Shown here one piece after another: positions 5,054 to 16,442 of a stretch of 44,455 bases of DNA (positions within the stretch are counted from its first letter, which is position 1; each line of letters begins with the position of its first letter). The stretch lies in the NCBI GenBank assembly GCA_017961015.1, contig JAGCYC010000001.1, positions 1-44,455 on the forward strand. The letters are read 5' to 3'. Origin of the DNA: Bacteroidales bacterium. Its GTDB lineage: Bacteria; Bacteroidota; Bacteroidia; Bacteroidales; UBA932. The notes beneath the pieces are model-generated. The model saw only the letters and a list, made by a program, of their open reading frames with translations. It did no database searches and was not told the origin of the DNA. The translations under genes and the position numbers were made by a program.

Positions 5054-8000
5054 TTACGGTATCGCAGTTATGTAGTCGGCCCAGGTGCTCCAGTTGGCCG
5101 CGGCCTTGTAGGCTTCTACGGAGCCTGCCGGGACGTATATCGTAGGGACGAACTTGCCCGGATCGTTGGTGATTCTCATTGCCGACGGAGGATTGGCGGC
5201 GCGGACCGTGATCGAGATCGTGGTACAGCCGTTGAAAACGTCGGAGCCAATGGTCGTAACATTGCTGCCTATATCGACCGACGCCAGGGCCGGGCAGGCG
5301 CAGAATACATAGCCGGCAAGGGTAACTGCCCCGGATAGATCGGCGCTTGCAAGCGAAGTGCAGCCGCGGAAGCACTGATACGGGAAATCAGTCCAGTTGG
5401 AAAGATTAGCCGAAGTGAGTGCGGTGGCGTCCAGGAAGATATCGTTCCCGATCGTGAGTCCGCTGCGGTTGATTCCGGTGGGAAGGCTGGTAAGCCTGGA
5501 CTTGTAGAAACACCTTGTGCCAAAGCTGCTTACGTTGGAAACATCTATCCTGCTGCCGTCGGTAAGGGAGGCGCAGCCGCTGAAAGCATAATCGCCAAGA
5601 GCAGTGATGCCGGAGCCGAGATTCACTTCTTCCAGTGAACTCCATCCCACGCAGAAGCCCTTGGGAACACTTGTCCAGGTATCCGGGAAAGTGACGGAAG
5701 CAATAGGGCAGCCCGCAAAGGCGGAGGTGGCGTTATCTGTAGTATAGATGGATGCGTCGCGGTCCCAGCCAAGAGGGAGGGAAGTGAAGCCGCAGTTCTG
5801 GAAAGCATTGACTTCAATCCTTGTTACATTGGAGGGGATATCGGCCGTCGTAAGGGACGAGCAGCCGTAGAACACGTTGGATCTTATTGTGGTAAAGCTG
5901 GCGGAGGTGGGGAAAACCACGGTTGCGAGCGACTTACAATCCCTGAAAGCATTTTGCTCAAGCGTCGTAAGCGAGGAGGGGAGAGTTGCGCTTGTGATTC
6001 CGGCCTGTTCGAAAGCGTAGCCGGCGATATTCGTTACCGTCGAGGGGAAGGAAACGGCCGACAGGGAAGAACAGTTATAGAAAGCGTATTGGCCGATAGC
6101 GATAAGTCCCTCGTTCAGGGTGATGCTCGAGAGTTTGGTACATTTGTAAAACGCCCTTGAACTGATTTCTGTAATTCCGGAGCCAAGTACGACGCTTTCC
6201 AGGCCCGACCATTCCTCGCAGAACTTGGCGGGAACGGAGGTCATAGTATCCGGGAATGTGAGCGTGGTAACCGGACAGCCCTTGAACACATATTCGCCGT
6301 AGGTGATGCCGGCCCTGCCCCATCCTGCCGGAAGCGTGGTGAAGCCGCAGTTCAGGAAGGCATATTGATTGATGGCCGTAACATTGGAAGGAATACTTGC
6401 ACTGGTAAGATTCGTGCAGCTGTTAAAGCAATACTGGGGAATGGTTGTAAAGCCGGAGTTTGTGGGGAAGGTGACAGTTTCAAGCGAAGTGCAGCTTTCA
6501 AACGCCCTTTGTCCCATAGAAGTAAGGCCTTCCGGCAATACTATGGATGAAAGCAGCTTACAACTGGCAAATGCAGAATCTCCTATTGAAGATACAGTAG
6601 AAGGCAGGTCTATCTCCTGAAGCTTCGCGCAGGCGGAAAACGCACTTGCCCCTAATGAAGTGACATCGGCATTGAATGTTACGGACTCAAGCTTGGCGCA
6701 GGCGCTGAACATCCCGTCAGGTATGGCGATATCGTCGTTGAAGGTAACTGAAGTGAGCGAGCTGCTGGATTCGAAAAGCCAGCCTCCCATCGATGCTGGG
6801 GTATGCTCGAAGACAACTTCAGTCCCTTTGAAATTCTTGAAGGCCTTTGGCCCCAGATAGTCCAGTCCTTCCCAGATGGTAAGTGTCCCGGTGATATTGA
6901 TGCCCATCAGAGCTTCTTCGCCTATGGAAGTGATATGGGACATATCCTCTGGTACGAATTTGCTGCAGTTTACGAAGGCCTGCTTGCCGAGAACGGTCAG
7001 CGAACGGGGAAAATTGACTGACTCCAGGTTGCCGCATTCCCCGAAGCCGCGCTCTCCTATGCTGGTGACGGTATTGGGGATGGTGGCGGTCTTCAAATTA
7101 CTTCCCCTGAAGGCGTAGTAGCCGATTGTGGTAACCGGTCCGGAGAAGGTGATGACGCCCGTCCTGGTCTCTGAATCATAGTCGTGGCTTACCACCGTGA
7201 GACCGTCGCCGAAGACGGAAGCATCGGCCCCGCCCTCATATTTATTGAGCTTGCTTGTGTTGGAAGTGGTATAGGTGATCTTTGCCGATTCGTCGCGGAA
7301 GCTAGGGTTGGAAAGCTCGATGGGACTTACCATACTGCGTTCCACTTCTATCGGATTCTTGCTCTTCAGGCTGCATATAGTGCCGTCGGAAGCCTCGATA
7401 AGTATCTGCAGTTTACCGTAGGTGGCCGCGGGAACGGTAATGAAGAAGAGTGTGAAGGTCTCCGTATTCAGCGCGACGGGAGTCTCGCAGATAAGGGATG
7501 TTCCGTTTGCACCGGACGCCAGGACAGCAGCGTTCCCAGAGACGCTGAAGCGCCCGCTCATTGGCTTGGGGGTTTCGCCCTTATCGGCAAGTGTGATGGA
7601 GCTCACGCTCTTGCTGCCCTTGAGTTTTATAAGGATTACTCCGCAGAGATTCTTGAAAGGAAGGCTGGGCTCGTCGGATTCGGCATACATAGGGAAGGCG
7701 CCTATTCCAGCTGCCACGTAAGGCTGCTCGGCGGGAAGATTGAAGTTGCCGTAGCGGTCGCGCAGCGAAGAGGGGTAGATGGCCTTGTATTTGGGACCGG
7801 AACTCGCCGGAGTAGGTGATACACCGGTAAACTGTCCCTTTGATTGCCCGGGGCCATAGCCGTCAGGCTGATCGCTTGTGGCAAGTTCGAGCTCCCTGCC
7901 GTTCACGTTAATCTTGTCGCCGGCTTTCCAAAGCACGGAATAAGTGCCGTCACCGTTCGAGGAAAGCTCAGTCCTTGTCACAGGACCTTCTGTTCCGGCT

Positions 8001-8146
8001 CTGAAAACAGCCTGTATATCCGCTGGAACGGTGGTCTCGATGCCGCTCGCGGGACTCTCCGGCTTTTGGATGTCAGACTCCTTCTGACACGACAAAAACG
8101 CTGTAGCAGCCATTATGACTGCAATAATCGGGGAAAATCTGGACAT
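5054..8146 (-). CDS. BspA-like leucine-rich repeat surface lipoprotein
   Basis: About 1030 residues. The N-terminus has a type II signal peptide ending in ATAFLSC, so the protein should be lipidated. Residues of about 30-290 look like a fimbrillin/Mfa-type beta domain, as in many Bacteroidales adhesins. From about residue 320 to near the end there are many LRR_5 (BspA/TpLRR) repeats with the rhythm I..AF..C..L..V.FP, and the C-terminus is the common IYVPAGSVEAYK...W closing motif. A block of about 115 residues is duplicated within the LRR array. I start at the second ATG (8146) because a strong AGGAGG precedes it; an ATG at 8164 overlaps the upstream small ORF's stop. Likely a surface adhesin. 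Confidence 0.9.
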   Translation of the reverse strand: MSRFSPIIAVIMAATAFLSCQKESDIQKPESPASGIETTVPADIQAVFRAGTEGPVTRTELSSNGDGTYSVLWKAGDKINVNGRELELATSDQPDGYGPGQSKGQFTGVSPTPASSGPKYKAIYPSSLRDRYGNFNLPAEQPYVAAGIGAFPMYAESDEPSLPFKNLCGVILIKLKGSKSVSSITLADKGETPKPMSGRFSVSGNAAVLASGANGTSLICETPVALNTETFTLFFITVPAATYGKLQILIEASDGTICSLKSKNPIEVERSMVSPIELSNPSFRDESAKITYTTSNTSKLNKYEGGADASVFGDGLTVVSHDYDSETRTGVITFSGPVTTIGYYAFRGSNLKTATIPNTVTSIGERGFGECGNLESVNFPRSLTVLGKQAFVNCSKFVPEDMSHITSIGEEALMGINITGTLTIWEGLDYLGPKAFKNFKGTEVVFEHTPASMGGWLFESSSSLTSVTFNDDIAIPDGMFSACAKLESVTFNADVTSLGASAFSACAKLQEIDLPSTVSSIGDSAFASCKLLSSIVLPEGLTSMGQRAFESCTSLETVTFPTNSGFTTIPQYCFNSCTNLTSASIPSNVTAINQYAFLNCGFTTLPAGWGRAGITYGEYVFKGCPVTTLTFPDTMTSVPAKFCEEWSGLESVVLGSGITEISSRAFYKCTKLSSITLNEGLIAIGQYAFYNCSSLSAVSFPSTVTNIAGYAFEQAGITSATLPSSLTTLEQNAFRDCKSLATVVFPTSASFTTIRSNVFYGCSSLTTADIPSNVTRIEVNAFQNCGFTSLPLGWDRDASIYTTDNATSAFAGCPIASVTFPDTWTSVPKGFCVGWSSLEEVNLGSGITALGDYAFSGCASLTDGSRIDVSNVSSFGTRCFYKSRLTSLPTGINRSGLTIGNDIFLDATALTSANLSNWTDFPYQCFRGCTSLASADLSGAVTLAGYVFCACPALASVDIGSNVTTIGSDVFNGCTTISITVRAANPPSAMRITNDPGKFVPTIYVPAGSVEAYKAAANWSTWADYITAIP

Positions 8147-8160
8147 AGCGCGACCTCCTC

Positions 8161-8298
8161 TCATTCAAAATCGTTGTCGTTAAGAGGGGGATTGGTGCCG
8201 ACGCCTTCGTTACCGTCGCCGCTGAGACAAAGGGGGCCGGAATGAACCGTGAAAACAATCACGGCCGGGCTTTCATAGGATAATCTGAGCTGTTCCAT
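8161..8298 (-). CDS. Small 45-residue ORF upstream of the LRR lipoprotein
   Basis: The ORF encodes a 45-residue peptide beginning MEQLRLSYESPAVIVFTV, with a Gly/Asn/Asp-rich second half ending NPPLNDNDFE. Short ORFs of this style (a hydrophobic beta-like stretch, then a Ser/Gly/Asn-rich tail) often precede surface-lipoprotein genes in Bacteroidales. Its stop overlaps an in-frame ATG of the LRR gene by ATGA, implying translational coupling. A good promoter lies 38 bp upstream. Function is unknown. It has no signal peptide, and could be a leader or regulatory peptide. Confidence 0.6.
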   Translation of the reverse strand: MEQLRLSYESPAVIVFTVHSGPLCLSGDGNEGVGTNPPLNDNDFE

Positions 8299-8397: not shown

Positions 8398-8973
8398 TTA
8401 CTTGAAACTCTCGCCGAGGACTATGCGGCGGAGGTTGCAGCCGGCGTAGTTGCCCAGGACGATGACGGGGTAGTACCAGAGGACGTCCCAGCTGCAGGCT
8501 TTGGCAGCCACAAGGTAAACGACGTCGGCGATGCTGTGGTAGAAGCCGCAGAGGATGAACAGGGGCACGCCGAAAAGGACGGGCAGCACGTTCTTGCTGC
8601 TGCGGTACAGCCACACGGCCAGGTCGATGATAAGGCCGCAGCCAACGGCCCTCAGGAAACTGCGCCAGGGACCCTGGGCCAGCCTTCCGGCCACTACGGT
8701 CTGGGCGCGCTGCACGGGCTCACCACCTATAGACAGCACCAGCAGGCCAAGGAGCACGCAGCCAATCACGTTGAACAGCCATATCATTGCCAGCGAGCCG
8801 GTTTCCCTTAGGGGCATAACCCCCGCACGTCCGGTGTAGAGGGGAGTGCCGGAGAGCACTACTCCGATGAGACCGAATGCGAAGATAATGGCGCCCGGAA
8901 TGCCTCCGAGAGCCAGGAAACCATAGGCGCCCAGGCCTATCAGGATACCTGCGAGTAAGGACTGTCTGTTCAT
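8398..8973 (-). CDS. Formate/nitrite transporter (FNT) family channel, short form
   Basis: A 191-residue membrane protein with about six hydrophobic segments. FNT proteins form pentameric channels for formate, nitrite or hydrosulfide. The key region CGFYHSIAD near residue 140 carries the central pore histidine in the usual GxxHSxAN/D context, and a later GNYAGCNL resembles the conserved GN...GG segment. It is shorter than FocA (about 280), with compact loops. Its ATG overlaps the upstream isomerase-like gene's stop (8970-8973), so it is the last gene of that operon. The substrate cannot be told. Confidence 0.8.
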   Translation of the reverse strand: MNRQSLLAGILIGLGAYGFLALGGIPGAIIFAFGLIGVVLSGTPLYTGRAGVMPLRETGSLAMIWLFNVIGCVLLGLLVLSIGGEPVQRAQTVVAGRLAQGPWRSFLRAVGCGLIIDLAVWLYRSSKNVLPVLFGVPLFILCGFYHSIADVVYLVAAKACSWDVLWYYPVIVLGNYAGCNLRRIVLGESFK

Positions 8974-10178
8974 ATTATGCTTGTAAGGAATTCTTCCAGG
9001 AGGGCTTTATGCGCTCCCGGGATAACTATGTGATGATTGCCCACCGGATCGGTGAGGAAGTACCTGGCCTGTTCAGGCTTAAGTCTTACCAGGATCTGGG
9101 TGCGGCAGAGATTGTCTTCGTACTGGTTGCGGACAAGTTCCCCTTCGGCTACGAAATACCGGCCCAGGTCTCCTGAAACTTTGAATATGGTTACCGGACC
9201 TTCCGGGAACTCCCCGTGTATGCCCACGCCTATGCCCGATTCGAAGTGGGTGTCGTAGCAGATGCTGGTAGGGATGTTCATGGGGATGGTGCAGTGGGCC
9301 AGGAGCACTTCGCCGCTTTCCGTGTCTATCCTTGAGGGATTTGCCTGGAAGCCGGTGCAGCCGGTAAGCTCTTTGGCGAGCATCATACTCAGAAGTGCAG
9401 GGACGTCGCCTTCGCAGGAGGACGGTATGCCCTGGGCATTAAGCCTGGACAGGGCGAGGCAGCCGGTATTGCCTACCGAGGTGAGAAGGTCGAAGCACCT
9501 GAGTGTGAGGGCGCTCAGCCTGTATTCGTCCTTGATTGCCTCCAGGGCTTTGTATATGCGTTCCGCGCCGGGGAAGGAGGCGCTGATATCCGTTTTCATC
9601 GGCAGACCATCTGGAACCGGACCCTCCGGAAGGGCCTCGATCTTTTCCTGAAGTTTGCCGATAGGTACCTCCACCAGCGTGGCTCCGAGCTTTTCCTTTA
9701 TGGCATCGGCATCGGGAAGGCTGGCGATGAGCCAGTCGGAGGGTTTCCCCACCAGGCCGATACGCCCGCCCTTCAGGGCCTCCCGCGCAAGGGCCACCTT
9801 TGCGAGCCTGTCAATCCTGCAGCGCAGCTGCTCCGGCTTTCCGTGGAGGATTTCACCGGGGATGCCCTGCTGCCGGAGGTAGCTCAGAATCTCGATTGAA
9901 GCTGCCAGGGAATTGCTTTTTCCGGAGGTGAGGAGGTACAGTTTCCCCGTTCCGGCGGCAAGAATCCCGGGAAGGAGCTGGCGGAAGATGCCCTCGGCCC
10001 CGCCGGTGCGTATGTAGATAAGGCTCAGGGGATGGCTGCCGAAGCTGTCGAAACCGGCTCCGGGAAAGTCGAAGCCGCCTTCCGGGAATATGCTGGAAAG
10101 GAAAGCGTCAGACAGTCCGGCGACTGCCTTTTCGTCGTGCAGTCCGGAGGTGATGGTGTAAATGGCAAGAGGATTCAT
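8970..10178 (-). CDS. L-fucose/L-arabinose isomerase-like protein
   Basis: A 402-residue protein that resembles the fucose/arabinose isomerase fold group: a Rossmann-like N-terminal half, then a C-terminal half with candidate metal ligands in SCEGD, LAHCTIP and the closing DPVGNHHIVIPG. Real L-fucose isomerases are about 590 residues, so this is a short divergent relative. It could be a sugar isomerase or a homologue with another role. It starts 3 bp after the Na/Pi-cotransporter stop and overlaps the FNT gene by 4 bp. No fucose or arabinose catabolism genes are nearby, so the substrate is open. Confidence 0.65.
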   Translation of the reverse strand: MNPLAIYTITSGLHDEKAVAGLSDAFLSSIFPEGGFDFPGAGFDSFGSHPLSLIYIRTGGAEGIFRQLLPGILAAGTGKLYLLTSGKSNSLAASIEILSYLRQQGIPGEILHGKPEQLRCRIDRLAKVALAREALKGGRIGLVGKPSDWLIASLPDADAIKEKLGATLVEVPIGKLQEKIEALPEGPVPDGLPMKTDISASFPGAERIYKALEAIKDEYRLSALTLRCFDLLTSVGNTGCLALSRLNAQGIPSSCEGDVPALLSMMLAKELTGCTGFQANPSRIDTESGEVLLAHCTIPMNIPTSICYDTHFESGIGVGIHGEFPEGPVTIFKVSGDLGRYFVAEGELVRNQYEDNLCRTQILVRLKPEQARYFLTDPVGNHHIVIPGAHKALLEEFLTSII

Positions 10179-10181
10179 ATC

Positions 10182-12131
10182 CTATTCAAAGTAGTAGCCG
10201 TAGCCGGCCTTGGTGCGGATATGGTCGGCGCGGGGACCAAGCTTGGAACGGATGTGGCGTATGCTCACGTCCACGGTCCTTTCACTTGCGGCAGAGTCCT
10301 TGGGCCATACCAGCTCCAGGAGTTCCTCGGACGAGAAAATGCGTCCCGGGTTGGACGAGAGCAGGCTCAGGAGTTCGAATTCATTCTTTTCCAGGTCCAG
10401 GGGCTGGCCGTCCAGGCTGGCGCGCTTGGCGACGGTATCTATCTGCAGGGCGCTGCTTTCGGGGACATTGTCGCGCTTACCCATCTTGGCCTCGACTACG
10501 TTGATAATATAGTCTCCGAGTTTCTCGCACTCGCGGATGAAGTCGTAGAAGGTAGTGCCCACGGAGTAGCTGTATACACCTTCGTCCACATATTCGGTGT
10601 TGCGGTTGCGGAGGTCGTTGCGCAGGCTGTCTATCCTGTGCTCCAGTTCCACGGAGATATCCGGATCTCCTTCGCCGCGGAGGATTTCTTTCATCTGGTC
10701 AAAGGCTTTGTTCACCAGTTCGAACATTTCCGATATGCCGGCTTCCTGCTCGCCGTTGAACACGGCCTTCTGGCTTATCTTGCGCTCCATTATGCGGGAG
10801 AGGTTGTACAGGCTGTCGCCGATACTCTCCAGTTCGCTCACCTCACGCAGCAGCCCACGCACCTTGCGTTTGGTATCGTCGCTCAGGTGGGCGTTGCCCA
10901 ACTGTGCCAGGTAGGCTCCGATCTCGCTTTCCAGACGGTCGCTCATCTCTTCCATCTCCTTTACGCGGGCGGCCTTCTTGGCAAAGGCTTCGGCCTCTGT
11001 GGTGGCGTAGAGATCCTGGACATCGGCAAGCATCTGATGCATACGATCGGCGAAGAGCTCGGTCTCCTTCTGGGCCTGCAGGACCGCGATTTCAGGGGTC
11101 TTCATTATACCGCTCTGGATGTACATAAGCTTGAAGCCTTCGTCGCTGGGTTTCTGAGGTATGAGCTTGCTCACCAGTTTTTCAATCTGGGGAATGAACC
11201 AGATGAGGACCATCGTATTGGTCACGTTGAACATAGTGTGGAAGGTGGCCAGCACGAAGGACAGGCGTCCGGGAGTTTCGGCAGCGGCCTGGGGATCCAC
11301 TCCGGCGAGGCGGCAGGCGGCGTTCACGAAGGGATAGAAGATGCACAGCACCCACAGTACGCCGAACAGGTTGAACACCAGGTGCGCCAGTGCGGCCCTC
11401 CTTGCCTGGGTATTGGCCGACAGCGCCGCGATATTGGCGGTGACGGTGGTGCCGATATTTTCACCCATCACCAGCGCGATGCCCTGATAGATGGTGAGGA
11501 CTCCGCTGGTGCACAGCACCATCGTTATGGCCATAAGGGCGGCCGATGACTGGGCTATGCTGGTGAGCAGTCCGCCGATCAGGATGAACAGCAGGATGGT
11601 AAGGTAGCTGCCCGAGTCGAAGCCGGCGAAGAAGTTAACCACGCCCTCGTTGTGGGCCAGGTCCATTTCGCGGCCAGTGGCATTCAGGGTGCCCAGGGCG
11701 AAGAACATAAAGGCCAGACCGAAGAGGAAATCACCTACATAACGGCGCTTGTTGGACTGGATGAGCACGACGGCAACCAGGAACACCGGCCACACCAGGG
11801 TGGTGATGTTGAAGGAGAAGCCCGCCGACATAATCCAGGCCGACAGCGTAGTGCCGATATTGGCGCCCATGATCACCGAGATGGCCTGCGCGAGCGAGAG
11901 CAGCGCGGCGTTCACGAACGATACCGTCATCACCGTAGTAGCGGCCGACGACTGTACGGCGACGCATACGAGCATACCGGTAAGGACACCTGTGAAACGA
12001 TTGGTAGTCATTGCCCCCAGGATATGACGCAGGCCGGGACCGGCAATCTTCTGGAGGGCTTCGCTCATCACCTTCATACCGTACATCAGTAGGGCGATGC
12101 AGCCGAGTAGTTTAAATAGGGTTAATATCAT
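10182..12131 (-). CDS. Na/Pi cotransporter-PhoU protein fused to a C-terminal winged helix
   Basis: A 649-residue protein. Residues 1 to about 310 form a Na+/Pi cotransporter (NptA/PF02690-type) membrane domain with two inverted repeats, including QSSAATTVMTVSF and QSSAALMAITMV, and GANIGTT / GENIGTT motifs. Residues of about 345-545 are helical and PhoU-like. Residues of about 561-649 are a full OmpR/PhoB-type DNA-binding domain: NEFELLSLLSSNPGRIFS, then EELLELVW, the recognition-helix segment ERTVDVSIRHIRSKLG, and the wing RTKAGYGYYFE. The reading frame is continuous through the joins. NptA-PhoU proteins normally end after PhoU. All regulatory domains would be cytoplasmic, suggesting a membrane-anchored, phosphate-responsive transcription factor. 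First gene of an operon; the promoter lies 4 nt from its ATG. Confidence 0.9.
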   Translation of the reverse strand: MILTLFKLLGCIALLMYGMKVMSEALQKIAGPGLRHILGAMTTNRFTGVLTGMLVCVAVQSSAATTVMTVSFVNAALLSLAQAISVIMGANIGTTLSAWIMSAGFSFNITTLVWPVFLVAVVLIQSNKRRYVGDFLFGLAFMFFALGTLNATGREMDLAHNEGVVNFFAGFDSGSYLTILLFILIGGLLTSIAQSSAALMAITMVLCTSGVLTIYQGIALVMGENIGTTVTANIAALSANTQARRAALAHLVFNLFGVLWVLCIFYPFVNAACRLAGVDPQAAAETPGRLSFVLATFHTMFNVTNTMVLIWFIPQIEKLVSKLIPQKPSDEGFKLMYIQSGIMKTPEIAVLQAQKETELFADRMHQMLADVQDLYATTEAEAFAKKAARVKEMEEMSDRLESEIGAYLAQLGNAHLSDDTKRKVRGLLREVSELESIGDSLYNLSRIMERKISQKAVFNGEQEAGISEMFELVNKAFDQMKEILRGEGDPDISVELEHRIDSLRNDLRNRNTEYVDEGVYSYSVGTTFYDFIRECEKLGDYIINVVEAKMGKRDNVPESSALQIDTVAKRASLDGQPLDLEKNEFELLSLLSSNPGRIFSSEELLELVWPKDSAASERTVDVSIRHIRSKLGPRADHIRTKAGYGYYFE

Positions 12132-12135
12132 ATCG

Positions 12136-12167
12136 CAAAGATAAGATTTTGTCGGCCATCCTGCAAT
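12136..12167 (-). promoter_or_regulatory. Promoter of the Na/Pi-PhoU-winged helix operon
   Basis: Minus strand: ATTG (12164-12167), a 20-nt spacer, TATCTTTG (12136-12143), then only CGAT before the ATG at 12131. With a Bacteroidetes start site 3-5 nt past the box, the mRNA would be leaderless or nearly so. Confidence 0.65.
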
Positions 12168-12194
12168 AGCCTGTTCCCAAGTTTTTGGAAAAAA

Positions 12195-13451
12195 CTAGCG
12201 GACTGTGGGCAGGTCGGACCAGAGTGTGGTATAGTGGGGCGACTGATGGTCGCGGGACATAAAGATTTCGCCGCTGCCCTGTATGCCCAGTCTTACGGTG
12301 CCGGGGCCGAAACTGGCGTTGAGCGTATCCATGGCGGCATTGAGGCGGGCGTTCCTGGCCGCGGCCTGCGAATCGGCAAAAAGGTTGCCTACGTGGTCCC
12401 TGGCGGGTTCCAGGCGGGAAATCACCACGCCGGCCTTCTTGTAGCCGAAGCCGGGGCGCCAGAGCTCGCGGCAGGCCTGAACGGCCGCTGCTATAATGGC
12501 CCGCTGGTCGTCGGTGCCGTCGGGGAAGGTGACCATCTGGCTGCCGTAAGTCTGGGGTGCGGCGTCCTTGAAGCGGTTGGTAAAGGCAAATACCATAAGC
12601 TCCAGGCAGAGGGAATTCTGGGCACGGAGCTTTCCGGCTGCGGAAGAGGCAAAGTTGGCTACCTGGGTGCAAAGCTGTGAAACGTCGCTCACATCGTGGG
12701 CGAAACTCCTTGACACGCATATGCTCTGCTTGTCTTCCAGCTGGTCCTCGAATTCTATGCAGGGGATGCCGCGGAGCTCCTGCCAGGTCCGGAAACCAGG
12801 AAGGGCGAAGAGCCGGCGAACGGCGTTCTCGTGAAGCCTTGTGAAGTCCCAGGCGCTGCGGACTCCCATATCGGCCAGCTTAGGTATGGAGCGGCGGCCG
12901 ATGCCCCAGACATCCTCGACGGGAAAGTTCCGGAGCACCTTTTCAATATCGGCCGGCTTGTGCATATAGCAGCCGCCCTTCAGCTTGGGGTACTTCTTGC
13001 ACAGCTTTGAGGCTATCTTGGCAAGGGTTTTGGTGGGGGCGACGCCTACCGAGACTGGAATGGAAGTATACTTCCAGCATCGGGCCGACAGCTCCTTCGC
13101 GAAACGGTCGAAATCCCAGTCCAGCCCTCTCAGGTCCAGGAAAGCCTCGTCTATGGAATAGACTTCGACCGAAGGCACGGCCTCGCGCAGGACTGTCTGG
13201 ACGCGGCGCGACATATCGCCGTAAAGCGCAAAATTGGAAGAGAATACAGCCACGCCGTTGCGCTCCACTATGTCACGGATCTTGAACAGGGGATCGCCCA
13301 TTTTGATGCCCAGGGCCTTGGCCTCATTGCTCCTGGCCACTGCACAGCCGTCGTTGTTGGACAGCACTATCACAGGCTTTCCGTTCAGGTCAGGACGGAA
13401 AACCCTTTCGCAGGAAGCGAAAAAATTGTTGCAGTCGGCGAGGGCGAACAT
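12195..13451 (-). CDS. umuC: Y-family DNA polymerase V subunit UmuC
   Basis: A 418-residue error-prone DNA polymerase, almost the length of E. coli UmuC (422). The catalytic carboxylates are in the N-terminal ALADCNNFFASCE and in EVYSIDEAFLDL, with YGDMSRRV between. A helix-hairpin-helix-like segment (VEDVWGIGRRSIPKLADMG) and the C-terminal UmuC/little-finger region follow. It acts in translesion synthesis with UmuD', whose gene lies 6 bp upstream. Confidence 0.95.
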   Translation of the reverse strand: MFALADCNNFFASCERVFRPDLNGKPVIVLSNNDGCAVARSNEAKALGIKMGDPLFKIRDIVERNGVAVFSSNFALYGDMSRRVQTVLREAVPSVEVYSIDEAFLDLRGLDWDFDRFAKELSARCWKYTSIPVSVGVAPTKTLAKIASKLCKKYPKLKGGCYMHKPADIEKVLRNFPVEDVWGIGRRSIPKLADMGVRSAWDFTRLHENAVRRLFALPGFRTWQELRGIPCIEFEDQLEDKQSICVSRSFAHDVSDVSQLCTQVANFASSAAGKLRAQNSLCLELMVFAFTNRFKDAAPQTYGSQMVTFPDGTDDQRAIIAAAVQACRELWRPGFGYKKAGVVISRLEPARDHVGNLFADSQAAARNARLNAAMDTLNASFGPGTVRLGIQGSGEIFMSRDHQSPHYTTLWSDLPTVR

Positions 13452-13457
13452 GCCGTC

Positions 13458-13880
13458 TCAGGCTTTCTTGATTATGTAAGTGACCACTCCCCAGATGAGG
13501 AACTGGTTCTCGGGATGTACTTCTATGGGCCGATACTGGGGATGATCCTGGCTTGCAGGCAGAAGACGGACAACTCCGTCGCCTATCTCCACTATCTTGA
13601 CGGTGTATTCCCCGTCTATGTAGCATACGGCTTTGCAGTGGTTGTAAGGGTCCAGGGCGCGGTCTACGATGAGTATGTCGCCCTCGTCCATATCGGCATC
13701 GACCATCGAGATGCCGTCCACGCGGAAGAAGAAGGTGGATGCCTGATGCCTCACCAGGAGTTTCACCAGGTCCAGTTTTTCCCTTACGCCCTCGGCGGGG
13801 GAGGGAAAACCGGCCTTCACTTCGCCCAGAAGCAGGGATTCAAAGCTGCTGTCCTGAATGGGAAACGGCTCCATCGGCAA
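13458..13880 (-). CDS. umuD: UmuD-type S24 self-cleaving protein
   Basis: A 140-residue S24 peptidase-family protein. The self-cleavage site is the Ala-Gly of VKAGFPSPAEG (about residues 21-31). The catalytic serine is in VDGISMVDADM and the catalytic lysine in EYTVKIVEIG, as in UmuD/LexA. Cleavage yields UmuD', the partner of UmuC. It lies directly upstream of umuC and only 6 bp after a DUF486 gene. I see no clear SOS operator in front of it, so it may be read from further upstream. Confidence 0.93.
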   Translation of the reverse strand: MPMEPFPIQDSSFESLLLGEVKAGFPSPAEGVREKLDLVKLLVRHQASTFFFRVDGISMVDADMDEGDILIVDRALDPYNHCKAVCYIDGEYTVKIVEIGDGVVRLLPASQDHPQYRPIEVHPENQFLIWGVVTYIIKKA

Positions 13881-15396: not shown

Positions 15397-16320
15397 TCAA
15401 ACGTTAGACATATTCATATGCAAATATTTGCAAATCTGTGCAGCCATAGCGTATGTCTCTCTTCTAAGAATACGGAAAAGCTCCATTTTCCCCTCGGTAT
15501 CCATACAGAGGAACTCGTGAATATCATTGAATCCGCATTGTTTCATCAGGACTGATGTCATTTGTGCGTAGTGTTTGTCGTCCCTGCCCACGAATACCTC
15601 GTTTAGGTCATATTCGTTTCCCGTATTGTAATGCATGCTAGCAATCATTTCATCGGCAGAATTGAAGAACTTTGCGGCAAGGTCGTAATCAATCACATTA
15701 TAGCATGTTATTATTCTGTCTATCAGTTGCTGTTTTTGAACTAGTGACAGTTTTGAGGATATGTTCCTAAGCATCTGGTAATTAAGAGGCCGCCCGGCAG
15801 AATGTTGAGATTCTACCAGTTTCATAACCCGCCGCATTTCCCTGGAAGAGAGTTTAGTTACGTATTTTTCTGAGAATGGATGAGAACTGTTTGAATAAGC
15901 CAGATAGTTCCACCTATACTCTTCGGCTCTTGTTACTAGTTGCCGTTCTACGGGATTGTTGCCGATATATATTATGTTATTGCGTGCTGCCTTTGGACCC
16001 TTTTTAGGAACACTGTTGAAAGTCGCCTCAAAGACCTTGCCTTTCAGCTTAAAAGCAGAATTGTATTCCTTGGCAAATCGGGAATTCAATTCCTGAAAAA
16101 AGCTTGTAAGATCTTTTGCCGATCTTGCAGTCAGTGCAGCGTGGATGTGGTCTGGCATTTGACACAGGCTTATTGCCTTGATATTGTATTTCCTGGCGCA
16201 GGTGCAGAACAGTGTGAAATAAACAAGGTAGTCGGAATAGGAGTAGAACAACAATCCACCATCGGCACTCCGTTGGTAACAATGGTTTATTATGTCCTTG
16301 ATTACAAGTCTGTGTTTCAT
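15397..16320 (-). CDS. REP-associated tyrosine transposase (RAYT, IS200/Y1 HUH family)
   Basis: A 307-residue protein starting at the ATG at 16320; the frame extends 7 codons upstream only to a TTG. The first 160 residues are the Y1 transposase domain. The metal-binding HUH motif is in CQMPDHIHAAL, and the probable nucleophilic tyrosine lies in the conserved helix IIYIGNNPVERQLV. The remaining 140 residues are a helical extension with a possible C-terminal helix-turn-helix (YAMAAQICKYLHM). Such enzymes cut and join single-stranded palindromic DNA. The two flanking 108-bp palindromes are the obvious candidate substrates. The catalytic residues look intact. Confidence 0.87.
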   Translation of the reverse strand: MKHRLVIKDIINHCYQRSADGGLLFYSYSDYLVYFTLFCTCARKYNIKAISLCQMPDHIHAALTARSAKDLTSFFQELNSRFAKEYNSAFKLKGKVFEATFNSVPKKGPKAARNNIIYIGNNPVERQLVTRAEEYRWNYLAYSNSSHPFSEKYVTKLSSREMRRVMKLVESQHSAGRPLNYQMLRNISSKLSLVQKQQLIDRIITCYNVIDYDLAAKFFNSADEMIASMHYNTGNEYDLNEVFVGRDDKHYAQMTSVLMKQCGFNDIHEFLCMDTEGKMELFRILRRETYAMAAQICKYLHMNMSNV

Positions 16321-16442
16321 ATGGTAGCAGTTCAAGGCCAATGGGAGAATCCATTGAATGAAATATAAAGCGAATATGGTGAGCTTTTTTCAGACTTGCA
16401 ATAGGAATCGGCAATATCTTTTCACACGTAGTCAAAATAAGT

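Follow-up and report, generated by a model that had tools for sequence, protein, structure and literature searches.

How PhoU and a phosphate transporter relay phosphate status to the PhoR-PhoB two-component system is an old question that has yet to be settled. YjbB of Escherichia coli is an NptA-type symporter with a PhoU domain, similar to NptA of Staphylococcus aureus. Regulators of the ToxR/CadC type have an N-terminal winged helix, a single membrane helix, and a periplasmic sensor, and CbrA-type proteins are histidine kinases linked to a transporter-like part. PhoB acts mostly as an activator, and the period of the Pho box is 11 bp. PhoB domains are described as binding direct repeats as a head-to-tail pair (PMC3348028 and PMC3973317), and the PhoU domain of S. 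aureus NptA as repressing PhoR in alkaline medium (PMC13170248).

Here, we describe a family of genes of some gut bacteria in which an Na/Pi cotransporter, PhoU, and a PhoB-type DNA-binding domain form a single polypeptide. The parts are known (NptA with PhoU, the PhoB winged helix, and ToxR/CadC-type membrane regulators), but neither their combination nor an earlier report of the fusion was found in a search of open-access literature, which misses most subscription journals. The example from which the analysis starts lies in the window, by which we mean the whole stretch of 44,455 nucleotides analyzed (Bacteroidales bacterium, assembly GCA_017961015.1, contig JAGCYC010000001.1, positions 1 to 44,455).

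Architecture of the fused transporter

On the reverse strand of the window, a single open frame of 649 codons runs from ATG to stop. It had initially been annotated as encoding, in one frame, an Na/Pi cotransporter domain, a PhoU domain, and a complete PhoB-type winged helix at approximately residues 561-649, and this reading is borne out by Pfam, the limits of the winged helix included. The features of the gene, its promoter, and the two genes behind it are listed here.

10182..12131, reverse strand: fused gene, Na/Pi cotransporter, PhoU, and PhoB-type winged helix, 649 residues, stop codon included (one frame; Pfam)
11682..12092, reverse strand: Na_Pi_cotrans domain, first repeat, residues 14-150 (Pfam; QSS motifs)
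11367..11585, reverse strand: Na_Pi_cotrans, second repeat (43 bits, above cut-off)
10791..11048, reverse strand: PhoU domain, first repeat, residues 362-447 (E 1.2e-9, whole protein)
10491..10736, reverse strand: PhoU domain, second repeat (21.5 bits; below cut-off alone)
10188..10409, reverse strand: Trans_reg_C winged helix, residues 575-648 (Pfam)
10239..10283, reverse strand: recognition helix, residues 617-631, ERTVDVSIRHIRSKL (placed by aligning 67 fused domains with 14 from response regulators)
12136..12166, reverse strand: putative Bacteroidetes-type promoter of the fused gene, TTG-N20-TATCTTTG (pattern match)
8970..10178, reverse strand: second gene of the likely operon, 402 residues, weakly sugar-isomerase-like (49 bits to sulfoquinovose isomerase, cut-off 700)
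8398..8973, reverse strand: third gene, formate/nitrite-type (FNT) channel, 191 residues (Pfam Form_Nir_trans, E 2e-19)

All three Pfam domains score over their cut-offs: Na_Pi_cotrans at residues 14-150 (E 5.8e-52), PhoU at residues 362-447 (E 1.2e-9), and Trans_reg_C at residues 575-648 (E 8.4e-22), the last a full-length match that covers 77/77 profile positions. The best NCBIfam match of the C terminus is the DNA-binding half of Bacteroidetes PhoB (NF053854), with residues 553-649 aligned to positions 129-225 of 225; its 91.6 bits lie under the whole-protein cut-off of 270, as half a protein would be expected to. The junction therefore corresponds to the linker between the receiver and the DNA-binding domain of PhoB. 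Sequence comparison also matches the C terminus to 1gxp, a solved structure of the E. coli PhoB DNA-binding domain (E 8e-13), and the Pfam, NCBIfam, and 1gxp matches together rule out a chance resemblance to a winged helix. A search of the fused protein for Response_reg, the receiver that holds the phospho-acceptor, gave no Pfam match at E 0.1.

Hydrophobic segments above threshold are spread over residues 1-279, with none in residues 331-649. PhoU and the winged helix are joined in one chain, the linker between them being approximately 10 residues long in the aligned fused proteins, and PhoU would be the sensor of the protein. The QSS motifs at residues 60-62 and 194-196 are invariant in 48 fused proteins, as are E433, E435, and D439 together with E536, G539, and D540, which we take to represent the E..E..GD motif of PhoU. 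The genome to which the window belongs is a 1.70-Mb metagenome-assembled genome, 77% complete, in which the fused gene is the only Na/Pi cotransporter gene found and its winged helix the only Trans_reg_C domain found.

Distribution of the fusion

The fusion is a conserved architecture and not an artefact. Within the genus, it is found in 11 of 61 genomes (that of the window and 60 others), in one of which, G051, it is cut by the contig end; G025, the pieces of which sit in separate frames, was left out of this count. At the level of the family, at least 49 matches span the junction between PhoU and the winged helix, in at least 45 of 398 genomes (25 genera), and the fused genomes among the matches listed fall into genera g1 (27, that of the window included), g15 (10), g16 (7), and g4 (1). 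An order-wide sample of 393 genomes, 387 of them from 119 other families, yielded at least one more fusion, in G815. From the loci collected, 72 distinct fused frames were extracted, 67 of which exceed 640 residues, the window protein included, and the same three Pfam domains are present in all 48 of the fused proteins scanned (that of the window and 47 others). The initial annotation had envisaged that a frameshift might separate the C terminus in other assemblies; with 67 distinct full-length frames from many assemblies, an assembly or frameshift artefact is ruled out. Two fused transporters per genome are seen in G003, G057, G316, G319, and G357.

Absence of PhoB and PhoR from most fused genomes

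In 40 of 53 fused genomes, no Trans_reg_C domain was found beyond the fused one or ones, and 23 of those 40 are at least 90% complete. At E 1e-25, PhoR-like kinases in frames of PhoR size are lacking from all 40; the matches near 1e-26 in four of them belong to frames of 920-1340 residues and were taken for hybrid kinases. In PhoB-bearing controls, the same PhoR query finds a kinase in 16 of 16, at E below 1e-50. Within the fused set, kinases reach this level only in G038, G299, G389, G422, G273, and G301, and weaker PhoR-like kinases in PhoR-sized frames occur in G057 and G319. All eight genomes belong to the 13 of 53 that keep another Trans_reg_C domain, and the remaining 45 of the 53 have no PhoR-sized PhoR-like kinase at E 1e-25. 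Other histidine kinases are present in most of the fused genomes tested, that of the window having four HisKA frames. There is no Trans_reg_C domain whatever in 26 of the 61 genomes of the genus, and loss of PhoB is therefore not peculiar to fused genomes. The earlier proposal that the fused protein needs no PhoR or PhoB agrees with the failure to find either in 40 of 53 fused genomes, and with the Pho-box-like repeat that lies upstream of part of the fused genes.

Evolutionary origin

The likely raw material of the fusion can be seen in the neighborhoods of stand-alone regulators. Among 55 PhoB-like loci, a set that was chosen in part because of nptA and in which L182 and L183 repeat L070 and L065, nptA adjoins on the same strand in 13 and divergently in 15, and a PhoR-like kinase lies behind in 54. 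Among 39 PhoB loci chosen by their winged helix alone (L184-L223 minus L219), 14 adjoin nptA (2 tandem and 12 divergent). Since nptA is a frequent neighbor of phoB in unfused relatives, the fusion probably replaced the receiver and the kinase. In several tandem nptA-phoB-phoR operons (L114:6753-7676, L099:8356-9276, L101, and L107), the kinase, judged by eye, is only approximately 300 residues long and has two membrane helices but hardly any periplasmic portion. Such short kinases suggest that the PhoU domain of the transporter may act as the sensor.

Three groups of fused proteins are seen in a tree built from the transporter part (106 rows, thinned from 141; quick method; winged helix excluded). 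Clade A, which holds the window, consists of 16 fused and 4 unfused rows of 20; clade B of 23 fused and 16 unfused rows of 39; and clade C of two rows within Prevotellaceae nptA-phoB operons (98-100% SH-aLRT). G057, with its two fused transporters, has one copy that is clade A-like and another that is clade B-like, and the fused gene of G815, from another family, is clade C-like by eye. The unfused rows nested in both A and B imply that the winged helix has been lost again several times and, therefore, that it is dispensable.

Tested against the tandem-operon rows, a single origin of all fused rows is rejected (dlnL 188.6, p 4e-106, in a quick tree of 88 rows with distant ones dropped), but a single origin of A and B is not (p 0.26). 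The winged-helix tree (93 rows, 100 columns) separates A (100/99), C (100/99), and B (65/80); in this tree, one clade is weakly rejected for A, B, and C together (p 0.046) but not for A and B (p 0.40). With one origin rejected for all fused rows but not for A and B, the fusion appears to have arisen at least twice, perhaps three times. Three separate fusions, as a firm claim, were dropped, as one origin of A and B is rejected in neither tree. A single fusion followed by regain of the receiver is a less likely alternative.

A putative Pho-box-like operator upstream of part of the fused genes

The upstream regions of fused genes contain direct repeats with an 11-bp period. A first count in non-redundant upstream regions (8-mers with at least 7/8 identity at period 11) found them in 7/22 regions of clade A, 5/17 of clade B, and 2/2 of clade C (14/41 for the fused genes in total), in 3/8 tandem and 6/12 divergent PhoB operons, and in 1/56 genes without a winged helix. 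Other periods between 7 and 16 gave 0-2 such repeats in the fused groups and up to 6/52 in the largest control group. Some of the period-11 matches are not box-like on reading (L034, which is GC-rich; L041, a T run; and L177), and a stricter count was therefore made, in which the half-site GTTACAAT had to reach at least 12/16 matches at period 11. This half-site was taken from five PhoB loci (L018, L020, L099, L188, and L198), which makes the resulting counts for PhoB loci, 5/8 tandem and 10/12 divergent, partly circular, a reservation that does not extend to fused genes or to genes without a winged helix. Boxes were counted in 3/22 regions of clade A, 8/17 of clade B, and 2/2 of clade C, i.e. 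in 13/41 fused regions versus 2/56 without a winged helix (p 3e-4, for thinned sequences that are not independent). The 3/22 of clade A barely exceed the 4.5% found in shuffles, because the boxes of this clade differ (GTTAAA, not GTTACA), and period 10 reaches the same threshold in 4/17 clade B regions. A clear box is absent from 28/41 non-redundant fused upstream regions. An operator-like repeat is thus present in part of the family and nearly absent where the winged helix is missing.

The box can be written as GTTAMAAT-N3-GTTAMAAT (box sequence GTTAAAATTCTGTTACAAT), and the promoter pattern behind it is TTG-N-TAnnTTTG. The box ends 11-13 bp upstream of the promoter TTG (12 bp in ten cases) in 13 of the 14 fused genes in which it is strong. 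It does not cover the promoter and occupies an activator-like place. A search of 18 whole genomes with the strict box pattern (1 mismatch) gave 17 matches, as against 4 with a reversed control, and 6 genomes have no match to the pattern. By comparison with the gene coordinates, 11 of the 17 are situated directly upstream of nptA; in G074, G093, G182, G220, G301, and G316, the sole genomic match (1 mismatch at most) is that upstream of the fused gene. With a looser pattern for clade A (2 mismatches, 6 genomes), 3 matches were obtained, two of them upstream of fused genes, versus 8 with its reversed control, and this pattern therefore has no power. The fused gene of G815 is preceded by the repeat TGTAACCGAAT/TGTAGCCG. 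In G028, a permease-like gene is followed by a second perfect box (L121:3620-3638), which precedes the fused-gene box by 2.8 kb and has no clear promoter after it.

Selection and the recognition helix

Median dN/dS values were taken over pairs with dS of 0.05-1.2. For the membrane part, PhoU, and the winged helix, respectively, they are 0.07, 0.17, and 0.30 in clade A (62 pairs, 26 sequences) and 0.07, 0.16, and 0.28 in clade B (171 pairs, 39 sequences), where individual pairs reach 0.98 in the winged helix. Those of stand-alone regulators (48 pairs, 52 sequences) are 0.24 for the receiver and 0.18 for the winged helix. The fused winged helix is under purifying selection, yet it is drifting, and faster than the transporter or PhoU parts.

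Several positions are conserved across the 67 fused domains, including W609 (99%), R628 (97%), K630 (96%), D621 (91%), and G645 and Y646 (99%) and, in the wing, K or R at 641 (88%). Residue 626, which we take to be aligned with Arg201 of E. coli PhoB, is arginine in 64%, histidine in 18%, and aspartate in 12%. The equivalent arginine of PhoB is described as touching a guanine (PMC3973317). The residues of helix and wing that would contact DNA are canonical in part of the fused family; the window copy has H626 and S623. Its recognition helix, ERTVDVSIRHIRSKL, departs at 623 and falls in the non-canonical class. Genes with a canonical helix (V622, N623, R/H626, and R628, a class defined after inspection of the data) have a box in 11/14 cases, and the others in 6/27 (p 8e-4, the classes being post hoc). 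The upstream word GTTGATAA occurs in 6/9 non-redundant genes with D/E626 and in 0/32 others, so that regulator and site apparently co-evolve. The loci at which D/E626 accompanies this altered word are L007, L008, L046, L047, and L049-L052.

Promoter and neighborhood of the window copy

The promoter of the window copy was identified by what we take to be the Bacteroidetes promoter consensus, a pattern that is present in 25/50 fused upstream regions versus 0.8% of letter shuffles. The initial annotation had named a promoter at 12136-12167 on which the winged helix could be tested; the pattern does exist, at 12136-12166, but it has no box, and a search of the 77%-complete genome with 1 or 2 mismatches allowed brought up none in other places either. 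A match with 3 mismatches (12110-12126) falls within the opening codons of the gene and is put down to chance, 34 of 100 shuffles having at least one. With a promoter that has no box and a recognition helix that has drifted, the case is stronger for the relatives than for the window copy, and the latter may have another target or a DNA-binding role that is fading.

The isomerase-like and FNT genes had been proposed as possible targets within the operon. The 402-residue isomerase-like protein has no Pfam match, and no relatives of either gene were found among the neighbors of the other fused loci examined. They are therefore unlikely to be selected targets, and we reject the idea that the operon represents a conserved set of them. 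Directly upstream of the fused gene lies a umuC-like polymerase gene (12195-13880; Pfam IMS and DUF4113), itself preceded by a frame that is UmuD-like by eye. An inverted repeat, AGTTTTT-TCC-AAAAACT, spans the stop codon of the umuC-like gene at 12180-12196, where the relatives have their box, and is perhaps a terminator. Also in the window, and likewise recognized by eye, are a 1036-residue protein with many BspA-type leucine-rich repeats (5054-8164) and a REP-type (Y1) transposase-like frame (15397-16341).

A probable self-regulating transporter and its alternatives

We consider it probable (approximately 0.65) that the fused protein acts as a self-regulating, one-component phosphate homeostat. 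Ancestrally, nptA-phoU would have stood beside phoB and phoR, and the transporter-borne PhoU would have signaled phosphate status to the PhoR-PhoB relay. The transporter gene would then have become joined to the DNA-binding half of a phoB gene, most simply the neighboring one, here and at least once elsewhere, with receiver and kinase lost afterwards from most fused genomes. In the resulting protein, the membrane part would transport phosphate and PhoU would sense it; phosphate status would alter PhoU and so free or align the winged helices of a transporter dimer. These cytoplasmic winged helices would bind, as a pair, the 11-bp-spaced direct repeat upstream of the promoter of their own gene, and box binding would step up transcription of the transporter gene under phosphate shortage, activation being the most likely outcome. 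The architecture, its conservation, the apparent lack of a second PhoB-type domain or a PhoR-like kinase in most fused genomes, and the pattern of operator-like repeats are established at the level of sequence; DNA binding, the sign of regulation, control by PhoU, and the pairing of winged helices through dimerization are what we infer. The one-component phosphate-flux regulator of the initial annotation thus survives as a real, conserved fusion in genomes that mostly have no PhoR or PhoB, but without its operon targets, and the case for the window copy itself is weak. A fuller proposition would be that the transporter is its own transcription factor, uniting transport, flux sensing, and DNA binding in one membrane protein, with its own promoter as the main or only operator, and that this arrangement arose more than once by capture of a neighboring phoB, replaced PhoR-PhoB, and has a helix and operator that drift together. 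To this, taken as a whole, we would give even odds.

The nesting of unfused rows inside fused clades, a winged helix that evolves faster than the remaining protein, and the drifted recognition helix and missing box of the window copy and several relatives would all suit a relic. A deletion in an nptA-phoB operon would have made the fusion, DNA binding would be fading, the winged helix would now be a stabilizing or dimerizing tail, and the boxes would be remnants of PhoB control. We think this unlikely, given that boxes persist in genomes with no other PhoB-type domain (e.g. G074, which is 100% complete) and genes without a winged helix are mostly boxless, that the spacing of box and promoter is a constant 12 bp or thereabouts, that dN/dS is far below 1 in most pairs, and that GTTGATAA accompanies D/E626.

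Alternatively, the winged helix might act through a partner, in mixed dimers with a remaining PhoB or by tethering Pho promoters to the membrane, with phosphate sensed by another regulator. The 13 of 53 fused genomes that retain another Trans_reg_C domain, 8 of them with a PhoR-sized PhoR-like kinase, and the presence of other histidine kinases, such as the four HisKA frames in the genome of the window, leave a slim chance of this, set against the 40 of 53 in which neither a PhoB-type domain nor a PhoR-like kinase was found. It is also conceivable that the transporter shuts its own promoter by binding the box, as the sign of regulation is unreadable from sequence. A repressor seems very improbable, since the box stops 11-13 bp before the TTG element, in an activator-like place, and PhoB itself is established as mostly an activator. 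What speaks for it is a putative Na-dependent phosphate transporter of Bacteroides fragilis that is listed in Table 2 of PMC3547664 as dependent on PhoB and lower by 101-fold in low phosphate, which counts against the activator reading. The self-regulating homeostat, acting as an activator, is the interpretation that we prefer.

Comparison with known systems

The direct welding of PhoU to the DNA-binding side of PhoB, with kinase and receiver mostly dropped, suggests that PhoU can drive a DNA-binding domain without phosphorylation, and it offers a two-part system, consisting of one protein and one box, in which PhoU-driven DNA binding is testable. It also illustrates a natural route from two-component to one-component regulation, along which unfused neighbors, fused forms, and secondary losses coexist in related genomes.

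With S. aureus NptA, the fused protein shares the transporter and PhoU domains in identical order, but it adds a DNA-binding domain behind PhoU, and in most fused genomes no PhoR-like kinase was found. Like PhoB, including the Bacteroidetes form NF053854, it has a C-terminal winged helix and, in part of the family, an 11-bp direct repeat upstream of the promoter, and the PhoB genes of its relatives often adjoin nptA. Unlike PhoB, it has no receiver or phospho-acceptor and is tethered to the membrane by a transporter; with the receiver absent, it would not qualify as a PhoB. With ToxR and CadC, the likeness lies in an OmpR-type winged helix within a membrane protein and the lack of a phosphorelay. 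The fused winged helix is, however, C-terminal, behind PhoU, and apparently descended from PhoB, and the protein is a polytopic transporter rather than one membrane helix with a periplasmic sensor, so that domain order and topology would place it outside this group also. CbrA-type histidine kinases likewise combine a transporter-like part and a signaling output in one polypeptide, but their output is a kinase, whereas that of the fused protein would be a DNA-binding domain. Its most fitting label is that of an NptA-PhoU transporter that has captured the effector domain of a PhoB.
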